A program made the position numbers and the translations under genes. A stretch of 64,000 nucleotides of DNA from Chrysophaeum taylorii (Eukaryota; Sar; Pelagophyceae; Pelagomonadales; Pelagomonadaceae): the NCBI GenBank assembly GCA_029834535.1, contig JAQMWT010000139.1, positions 124,001-188,000 of the forward strand, read 5' to 3'. The notes beneath the pieces were generated by a model that ran no database searches, had not been told where the DNA came from, and saw only the letters and a list, made by a program, of their open reading frames with translations. Of this stretch, positions 55,987 to 58,201 are shown one piece after another; positions within the stretch are counted from its first letter, which is position 1; the number at the start of each line of letters is the position of its first letter.

Positions 55987-56889
55987 TCAAGGATCATCGC
56001 GGCCTTCTCCCCTCGAAGGTGGATGATTGGCGATGTCATAGAGAAGCCTCGTACGCGGGTCGATGAGGCAGCTATAGGCTTCGTTGATGCGCATCATGAG
56101 GGCCGTGGCTTGAGGTAGTTTTGAACGATCGGGGTGATACCTGAGGGCGAGGGCGAAGAAGGCTTTCTTGAGCTCCGCCGCCGTGGCGCGTGGTTGCACT
56201 CCGAGGACGGCGTAGTGCGAGGGCCTCGGCGGCGGCGGCGGCGACTGGGGAGGTTCGCGGGACGGAGGAAGGCCGCGAAATTCTTCTGATCGCGCGGGAC
56301 CGCGACGCGGGGGGTCGTCGCCAGACGCCGCGTTACGGGCGTTGCACGAGGCGGCGCGCGCGCCCTCGTCGCGGGTCGCGGTGCGCAGCTTGTCTTCGGC
56401 TTGACGCGCGAAGACGGCGGCACGTTTGCGCGCTACGTCGAGATAGCTTCGGGCGCGCGCGGCGGCGGCGGCGGCGGCGCGCATGCCGGCGGCGGCGGCG
56501 GCCCGGTCGGCGATGTCCGTGCTGCGCGAGGAGCCGTGACGCAGCGCGGCGCGCGGCGTCGAGGACGGGGGCGTCGCGAACGGCTCGGGCGCCTGCGGCT
56601 CGTCCAAGGCCGCGAGCTCTTCGAGAAGGTCCTGCTGCCAGCGGGCACGATGTTCGCGGCGGCGCCGTCGGACTCGAGCCGCCGCGGCTGCGCGAGCGGA
56701 CTCAACGTCCACCAGCCTTCTTGAGGGGGGCGGCCCTACGTCGGGCTTTCTTTGTGGGGGTCGGCTCTCCTGAGGCCGGAGCCGCCGTTGAGACGGCGGT
56801 AGTGACGAACCCCAGAGGAAGCGCTTCTGGGGTGGTGGCATGGGCGGCACGCGCGGCATCGGCGTGGTAATAGAGACAGGCGGTCCCAT
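55987..56889 (-). CDS. J-domain (DnaJ-like) co-chaperone with C-terminal J domain
   Basis: ATG at 56889 (MGPPVSITTPMPRVPP) gives 300 aa. The first ~65 residues are Pro/Arg-rich. Residues about 70-190 are an Arg/Ala-rich helix (RAAAAARVRRRRREHRARWQ). The J domain is at the C-terminal end (about 231-292): HYAVLGVQPRATAAELKKAF, LALRYHPDRSKLPQAT with the HPD motif that stimulates Hsp70 ATPase, and NEAYSCLIDPRTRLLYD. No zinc-finger or substrate-binding DnaJ domains are present, so this is a class C J protein that recruits Hsp70 to an unknown site. It is divergently paired with the Zn2Cys6-HMA gene; a TATAATAATATA stretch (56910-56921) lies in the gap. Confidence 0.88.
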   Translation of the reverse strand: MGPPVSITTPMPRVPPMPPPQKRFLWGSSLPPSQRRLRPQESRPPQRKPDVGPPPSRRLVDVESARAAAAARVRRRRREHRARWQQDLLEELAALDEPQAPEPFATPPSSTPRAALRHGSSRSTDIADRAAAAAGMRAAAAAAARARSYLDVARKRAAVFARQAEDKLRTATRDEGARAASCNARNAASGDDPPRRGPARSEEFRGLPPSREPPQSPPPPPRPSHYAVLGVQPRATAAELKKAFFALALRYHPDRSKLPQATALMMRINEAYSCLIDPRTRLLYDIANHPPSRGEGRDDP

Positions 56890-57075
56890 GTTGTGGTGGG
56901 GCGTTGGCCATATAATAATATACTTGTTCAAAATGGCACCATGACTTCAGCGTATCTTGTCAGAGATGATCGATCGAATCGATCGATCCCAACAATAAGG
57001 GCTGAGGATGGAGGAGGGTATGTGACGGCCGGCGCACTTGTGGCTGGAGGTTGGAAGGAAGTTCAATCCTTCGCG
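56890..57075. promoter_or_regulatory. Divergent promoter with TATAATAATATA and a palindrome
   Basis: This lies between the J-domain gene and the Zn2Cys6-HMA gene. It contains TATAATAATATA at 56910-56921 and, near 56967-56987, the palindrome GATCGATCGA-A-TCGATCGATC with 10-bp arms. If the plus-strand gene started at 56941 instead of 57076, the palindrome would be coding, but its codons look unlike the rest of the gene. Confidence 0.5.
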
Positions 57076-58201
57076 ATGCGGCAGCGCAAGTGCTGCGACG
57101 AGTGCAGTCGGCGTCGGAAGAAGGTGTCGGAGTGCAAGCCGCGAGGCCCCGGGCGCAAGTGCTGGTCGTGTGCCAAGTGGGTGCGGGAGTGCAGCTTCGT
57201 CAAGTCGTACCCGCCCGCGTTGCTCGGTTTGAAGATCGAGCTGTCGCGCGAGGAGAAGCGACACCAGCGCACGGCCGAGCTCCGGGCGATCGCGATCGAC
57301 AGGGGGATCGTGCACTCCGGGGACCAGGTCGTGCCAAACCAACCGGAAAGCAAGCCGCCTTTCGAGCTCGCGGCGGCGGCGGCCAAAGCCGCGGCGACGG
57401 CGCTCCGGGGCCACTCCTCGGAGCAATTTATGGCCGAGTCTGAGGCGGCCGCGGCGAGCATGGCCCCCAAGGACGCCGCGCAGGTCGCGCTCATGGCGTG
57501 GGCGGCCGCCTCGGCTCCGGCGAAGGGCGCGGCGCGGGCGGGCGACAGAAAGCGAGTCAAGCGCGAGGCCGGGCCCCTCGACCTCCTCGCCGACACGGCG
57601 CGGCAAGAAGGCGCCAAGTCGATCGTGCTTCGCGTTCCTGGAATGATGTGCCTGGGCTCGTGCGGCGCGACGATCAATCGCGCGCTCGAACGCGCGCTCC
57701 CGGAAACTTACGTCGCCGGTGCGTCTGGCGCGCGCCGACCCAACGAGGCGCAGGTATCGACGTGCCCCGACGACTCGTCCACTGCCACACGCCGTGCGCG
57801 CCGAACGATATCATCGACATCCTGCTCGCCATTGGCTTCGAATCGTCCGTGGTCTCCGTCTCCAAACAAAGTGGGTTTCGATTGATTTACGACGTGCCCT
57901 CTCACTTCGCGCAGGCGCCCCCCTCGCCGCCGGCTCGCTCCGAGAGACGGCCCCGCCGAACCAGGTCAACGACGACGAGTGGGACATCGCCGACGCCCTC
58001 GGACTCGTCTCCAACACGTGCGACAGACGAAGCGGCGGCGAGTGCAGCTGCGGACCGAGCTGTATGTGCCACTTTTGCCCCCAGCACCACCCCGATCGAT
58101 CCAACGCGCTCCGCTCCGCCAGCGTTCCGGCACATCCTGCCACGTCCTCTTCGGAAGATTCCGTTGCGACTTCCCCCCCTGCCGATCAACCTCCTCCGTG
58201 A
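57076..58201 (+). CDS. Putative metal-sensing transcription factor: Zn2Cys6 + HMA + copper-type Cys cluster
   Basis: Exons 57076-57718, 57754-57870 and 57915-58201, with introns of 35 and 44 nt, all phases consistent; 348 aa. Residues 7-39 form a fungal-like Zn2Cys6 cluster (C7-x2-C10-x9-C20-x8-C29-x2-C32-x6-C39) with a basic RRRKK segment. An Ala-rich linker follows. Residues about 181-253 form a heavy-metal-associated domain split by intron 1: SIVLRVPGMMCLGSCGATIN with C192 and C196, then DIIDILLAIGFESSVVSV. Residues 297-311 (ECSCGPSCMCHFCPQHH) give CXC-X3-CXC-X2-C-X2-H, the spacing of the copper-sensing motif in fungal Mac1/Cuf1-type regulators. Inferred role: metal (probably copper) responsive DNA-binding regulator. 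An alternative ATG at 56941 would add 45 residues. Confidence 0.8.

Follow-up and report, generated by a model that had tools for sequence, protein, structure and literature searches.

What kind of protein would join a basic six-cysteine head resembling fungal zinc clusters, an HMA domain and a C-terminal Cys/His motif like that of fungal copper sensors? This question is raised by a gene at positions 57076-58201 (+ strand) of a 64,000-nucleotide stretch (the window, whose numbering is used unless another contig is given) of the pelagophyte Chrysophaeum taylorii (Pelagophyceae, a stramenopile), located on contig JAQMWT010000139.1 (C139) of the 70.8-Mb genome. A basic Cys-rich head combined with a pair of copper-type modules is suggestive of a nuclear copper-responsive regulator, and we consider it somewhat probable that the protein is a nuclear Cu(I)-sensing regulator, of which a single copy was found in the genome and which has so far been named only from pelagophytes.

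Gene structure and relatives

Joining 57076-57718, 57754-57870 and 57915-58201 on the + strand gives a 348-amino-acid protein, here called P0001. Among 66 open one- or two-intron combinations in the enumerated range, this splice form results in a full HMA domain, its product is identical over all 348 residues to the deposited hypothetical protein CTAYLR_005464 of C. taylorii, and its junctions fall at or near in-frame insertions in a relative, P0014. Exon 1 (57076..57718) encodes residues 1-214 and the first base of codon 215, exon 2 (57754..57870) residues 215-253 and the first base of codon 254, and exon 3 (57915..58201) the remainder including the stop codon; intron 1 (57719..57753, 35 bp) and intron 2 (57871..57914, 44 bp) are both of the GT..AG type. 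The P0014 insertions, of 17 and 18 residues, lie exactly at the intron 1 junction and at most three residues from the intron 2 junction, respectively, and read as if they were unspliced introns. Gene models of the C. taylorii genome were built on RNA-seq and homology, according to a genome-wide statement in PMC10366177. Given that five of 14 related proteins hold all three modules and that P0014 has insertions at or near both intron positions, the exons belong together; an origin from different transcripts was rejected, being contradicted by the identical deposited protein, the P0014 insertions and the three-module relatives. The three-exon gene proposed in an earlier sequence-only reading of the locus was thus borne out, and all residues on which that reading was built (the six Cys, RRRKK, GMMCLGSCG and CXC-X3-CXC-X2-C-X2-H) are present in the spliced product.

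The 14 distinct proteins, P0001 included, were obtained from three protein searches. In the first two, scoring was confined to the 7996 and 7999 candidates with the most words in common, lists that were probably crowded by alanine-rich words, and a region-limited search scored 1605 candidates and added one further protein (P0014). Taxon names were attached to two of the 14, C. taylorii and Aureoumbra lagunensis (MMETSP, P0004), both pelagophytes, and the pelagophyte assignment rests on these two. By pattern, the six-Cys head was present in 8/14 proteins, the MMC-x3-C loop in 11/14 and the extended C-terminal motif in 9/14; head and HMA domain occurred together in 6/14, and some relatives share the combination described in the sequence-only reading, with all three modules in a single predicted protein in 5/14 (P0001, P0002, P0003, P0005 and P0006). 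Missing modules were mostly due to partial or frameshifted proteins: P0008 and P0009 are fragments from the head side, P0010-P0013 are fragments or frameshifted versions near P0006, and P0007 and P0014, each with one of the two halves and each encoded on a 5241-base contig from one source, probably represent one gene. As P0006 and P0010-P0013 seem to represent a single lineage or a small number of close ones, the 14 proteins do not correspond to 14 lineages.

Mean column identity was 76% for the head (7 rows), and 74% and 65% for the C-terminus and the HMA domain, respectively (6 rows). Invariant columns in alignment A3 (five proteins) included the six head Cys, C192, C196, C289, C297, C299, C303, C305, C308, H306, H311 and H312, and the six head Cys were also invariant in the 7 rows of alignment A4. 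In 200,000 shuffles the Mac1/Cuf1-type spacing arose 3 times in the 69-residue C-terminus and 0 times in the whole protein, and a broad Cys6 pattern arose 152 times in the first 70 residues and 111 times in the whole protein, all with patterns chosen after the protein had been seen. From these comparisons the motif patterns are judged not to be due to chance, with conservation weighing more than the shuffle counts.

When the own genome was searched with one module at a time, the matches among the best candidates scored were the P0001 locus, HMA repeats of a P-type ATPase and two frames in which the matched stretch lacks Cys; a paralogue family was therefore rejected, and no second gene copy was found among these candidates. 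A prokaryotic or viral origin was likewise unsupported, a relative being encoded by 0/25 pattern stretches in viral contigs and 0/54 in prokaryotic genome contigs (two peptide patterns per scan).

The three cysteine-rich modules

The HMA domain (residues 181-251, 57616..57863, + strand) is split by intron 1 and carries GMMCLGSCG at residues 189-197. The AlphaFold model has a beta-alpha-beta-beta-alpha-beta ferredoxin-like fold with ten-residue block mean pLDDT of 84-95 over residues 181-250, and its nearest solved folds are CCS, GolB and HAH1, the two best Foldseek matches being CCS structures and the top VIA row the gold protein GolB. The HMA profile (hmmsearch) matched ATP7-type ATPases down to 2e-9 (a P-type Cu(+) transporter), MerP at 8.4e-6 and a zinc ATPase domain weakly, and hhalign against HMA gave 98.4%. 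These profile results and the predicted fold support the HMA-like fold claimed in the sequence-only reading, even though the Pfam HMA (PF00403) gathering score of 24.8 bits was reached by none of the 13 proteins scanned (best 24.0; listed for 6/13, P0001 not among them). On this predicted fold and its profile matches, the HMA assignment appears solid.

The metal loop of this domain, MMC-LGS-C (C192 and C196), is C-x3-C instead of the standard GMxCxxC/CxxC, a departure that the sequence-only reading had missed. The same C-x3-C loop occurs in the first two HMA repeats (GMMCQQSCG and GMMCQKSCG) of the P-type ATPase encoded by the same genome (C99:137873-138874, +), in which a later repeat has CxxC, and an ATPase repeat with the C-x3-C loop passes the Pfam cut-off (34.4 bits). 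This ATPase has a CPC motif, by inference placing it in the copper class, and its repeats are the only own-genome HMA relatives found. In its HMA fold and profile P0001 resembles Cu(I) P-type ATPases (ATP7A/B and the own ATPase), and it shares its loop with two own repeats; it differs in lacking the standard CxxC loop and in that its HMA domain is joined to a putative DNA-binding head.

The C-terminal copper-type motif, C289-x7-C297-x-C299-x3-C303-x-C305-x2-C308-x2-H311-H312 (58019..58090, + strand), contains CXCX3CXCX2CX2H from C297 to H311, in agreement with the CXCX3/4CXCX2CX2H pattern of copper-fist factors, and is larger than noted earlier since C289 extends it to six Cys and H312 is added. 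Its spacing is invariant in six aligned sequences and identical to that of the REP motif of Schizosaccharomyces pombe Cuf1 (SpCuf1), as the sequence-only reading had in essence claimed; in PMC4992176 this motif is given as CXCX3CXCX2CX2H, that of Mac1 as having CX4, and copper binding to the REP motif is reported to mask SpCuf1. PMC3338643 describes Cys-X-Cys-X(3/4)-Cys-X-Cys-X2-Cys-X2-His as the Cuf1/Mac1 C-terminal domain that could sense copper and reports a Cu4S6 centre in Ace1/Amt1, whose six sulphurs equal, by our own comparison, the number of Cys in the extended motif of P0001. A PDB profile search with the C-terminal segment gave a best E of 0.62, to an unrelated structure.

The N-terminal module, C7-x2-C10-x9-C20-x8-C29-x2-C32-x6-C39 (57094..57192, + strand), is defined by its Cys pattern as a Zn2Cys6-like, possibly DNA-binding head. 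It contains the basic run SRRRKK (R12-R13-R14-K15-K16), and residues 1-45 hold 15 K/R versus 4 D/E. Zn2Cys6 domains (PF00172) have the consensus spacing CX2CX6CX5-12CX2CX6-8C; in the head (CX2CX9CX8CX2CX6C) four of the five gaps fit and the gap between the second and third Cys is x9 and not x6, corresponding to three additional residues ahead of the third Cys.

A possible copper-sensing regulator and its alternatives

If P0001 is such a regulator, the basic six-Cys module would be folded by zinc and bind target DNA, and the HMA domain would dock with Atx1-like or ATPase HMA traffic and receive Cu(I) via its C-x3-C loop. Intramolecular copper transfer would then close the C-terminal six-Cys/His element into a copper-thiolate cluster, and plentiful copper would most probably inactivate the protein or move it from the nucleus, the same sign as for fission-yeast Cuf1. 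Uptake genes such as those for Ctr transporters, which were found over cut-off on four contigs of the genome, would then run only when copper is short. More tentatively, we propose a stramenopile-algal copper-sensing transcription factor that arose independently of both the copper fist of fungi and the SBP type of green algae. In it, an internal chaperone-like HMA domain would accept Cu(I) out of the trafficking chain and pass it to a Cuf1-like cluster, thereby serving as the sensor's own metal inlet. The sequence-only reading of a metal-responsive regulator composed of unlike parts is fair and, in our view, the best one. What was observed is the gene structure, the conservation of the three modules, the predicted HMA fold and the motif spacing, whereas the nuclear location, DNA and Cu(I) binding, the copper relay, the sign of the switch and the target genes are what we infer.

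Like Cuf1 of fission yeast and Mac1 of yeast, P0001 has an N-terminal Cys module and a C-terminal Cys-rich element, the latter exactly as in SpCuf1 (PMC4992176); unlike them, it has an HMA domain, a six-Cys head and no copper fist by Pfam. As the sequence-only reading stated, copper-fist factors use another DNA-binding domain, and no copper fist (PF00649) was found over cut-off in this genome (best 20.1 versus 25 bits, away from P0001). The best reading by analogy is that P0001 would work like Cuf1 yet, because it has no copper fist, is not a Cuf1 relative. The S. pombe copper transporter gene mfc1+ has a Zn2Cys6 factor, Mca1, whose spacing is CX2CX6CX6CX2CX6C (PMC6080790). P0001 shares with Mca1 and other Zn2Cys6 factors a basic N-terminal six-Cys module, but it differs in the spacing of that module, in having no Pfam fungal regulatory region and in carrying copper-type motifs of its own. 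CRR1 is the SBP-type copper regulator of green algae, and P0001 would be its counterpart in function in another alga; it differs in having no SBP domain by Pfam, and none was found over cut-off in the genome. A sub-threshold SBP match (23.5 versus 27 bits) in a 904-aa frame (C438:11843-11992, -) is possibly an SBP-like zinc domain and possibly due to chance.

Several observations weigh against a copper-sensing, DNA-binding protein. None of the 13 proteins came up to the Pfam Zn_clus gathering cut-off, the family being listed only for P0008 (9.4 versus 21 bits), and with isolated heads Zn_clus was listed for 1/7 (E 0.15), with DUF3079 (E 0.011) and NMD3 (0.12) as good or better. Alignment of the head to Zn2Cys6 domains by hhalign gave 3.9% (4.6% with a cleaner reference set), and the best hit of a PDB profile search was unrelated (E 0.35). 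This search can detect zinc clusters, because a canonical cluster from the own genome found CBF3b (3e-4), LAC9 (0.014), PPR1 (0.022) and GAL4 (0.12). The head modelled alone by AlphaFold had a pLDDT of 56 and a single, meaningless PDB fold match (E 9.8), where a missing match excludes nothing. Furthermore, P0004 of A. lagunensis, a full-looking protein, has the HMA domain and the C-terminal motif behind an unrelated N-terminus without the six-Cys head; the head may therefore be dispensable, or P0004 may be a transcript variant or incomplete. Aspergillus Mac1 is reported to do without its C-terminal Cys motifs in low copper (PMC6354809), and Cryptococcus Cuf1 to be largely independent of its Mac1-like motifs while needing an Ace1-like motif in high copper (PMC13343922); for this reason the C-terminal motif alone is no proof of sensing. 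Finally, none of seven neighbouring frames scanned contained a copper gene. For the Zn2Cys6 claim of the sequence-only reading this means that the Cys pattern and the basic stretch stand, whereas the x9 spacing and the lack of recognition by Pfam, hhalign, PDB profiles or fold do not support membership; judged by its sequence, the head is Zn2Cys6-like and not a member of the family.

The main rival is that P0001 is a copper chaperone or buffer and not a transcription factor, its HMA domain handing Cu(I) to the C-terminal CXC cluster and the six-Cys head serving protein contact or metal storage. CCS, the copper chaperone for SOD, has an HMA domain as its first domain and a C-terminal CXC. P0001 resembles it in the order of an HMA domain followed by a CXC-bearing tail, and the top Foldseek matches, the headless P0004 and the lack of profile support for a DNA-binding head all point the same way, as does a sub-threshold Metallothio match in P0005 (E 0.048). 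That match was found in P0005 alone of 13 proteins, at 14.2 versus 23 bits, and P0001, with 348 aa, does not qualify as a metallothionein. Unlike CCS, P0001 has no SOD-like domain, Pfam giving no family for it up to E 10, and it has a six-Cys tail and a basic Cys6 head that is among the best conserved parts of the protein. We regard a chaperone as unlikely. A regulator responding to another soft metal (Zn, Cd, Hg or Ag) is rather improbable: the MerP, zinc ATPase and GolB matches would allow it, and we know of no measured metal preference of a C-x3-C HMA loop, but the HMA relatives in the own genome sit in the CPC-motif ATPase and the C-terminal element is spaced as in the copper sensor SpCuf1 (PMC4992176).

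We give very little credence to a genuine Zn2Cys6 protein of the fungal type whose regulatory role would be unconnected with copper and in which the other modules would be minor. The segment C-x2-C-x-K-W-x3-C-x-F resembles the second halves of AlcR and Gal4, and two Zn_clus matches in the genome exceed the cut-off. However, Pfam and hhalign fail, the second gap is x9, and resemblance beyond the Cys is weak. In 2000 Cys-fixed shuffles each, the mean score was reached 186, 332, 104, 9, 59 and 112 times and the best score 297, 229, 39, 33, 108 and 304 times (P0001, P0002, P0003, P0005, P0006 and P0008, respectively), compared to 0-2 of 500 for ten known-type zinc clusters. The six heads, out of seven in A4 with P0007 left out, are related and not independent, and the resemblance to known zinc clusters beyond the Cys appears slight.

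Returning to the copper-sensing regulator, the sensor spacing and the HMA domain are of kinds already known, while their union with this head and a C-x3-C HMA domain in a putative regulator appear to be new. In a limited search of the open-access literature, no protein with these three modules was found, consistent with the sequence-only reading, and no copper regulator of a stramenopile alga was described. If true, the proposal would open copper control in pelagophytes to experimental tests, show Cuf1-type cluster spacing combined with another head (through convergence or shuffling), and provide an example of direct metal delivery from an HMA domain to a eukaryotic transcription factor.

Other segments and genomic surroundings

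Between the head and the HMA domain lies an alanine-rich segment (residues 96-146, 57361..57513, + strand), conserved in the alignment and predicted by AlphaFold to form three helices at middling confidence. It ends with DAAQVALMAWAAAS and has no Pfam family in P0001; a sub-threshold GASH match lies over it in P0008. GASH and the other sub-threshold Pfam matches, DUF3834 (HMA piece), FAM217, Herpes_US8A, and DUF4559, NMD3 and DUF3079 (heads), were treated as noise and not used. A second basic cluster, RKRVKR (residues 158-163, 57547..57564, + strand), resembles and may be a nuclear localization signal. In a scan run without a control, a short basic pattern outside the head was present in 9/10 proteins at varying positions and absent from P0004.

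The seven neighbouring frames were picked from 36 of at least 180 aa within 44-64 kb of the window; six matched DnaJ, RRM, glycosyltransferase, TsaD, cofilin and GRIP and one was unmatched, leaving a copper-gene neighbourhood unsupported by these frames. The DnaJ-domain frame (55990-56889) is divergent, with its first ATG (56889) 186 bp from the P0001 start codon. In the interval an inverted repeat, GATCGATCG-AAT-CGATCGATC (56968-56988), lies 87 bp upstream of the start codon and may be a site or simply a GATC-type simple repeat.

Elsewhere in the genome, a 371-aa frame (C127:55981-56148, -) that ends in an HMA domain (GCAAC) and, judged visually, has several hydrophobic stretches is taken to be a membrane protein, and a 341-aa frame (C679:106689-107315, -) fuses a Ctr domain (40.7 bits) to a C-terminal CxxC HMA domain (48.5 bits).
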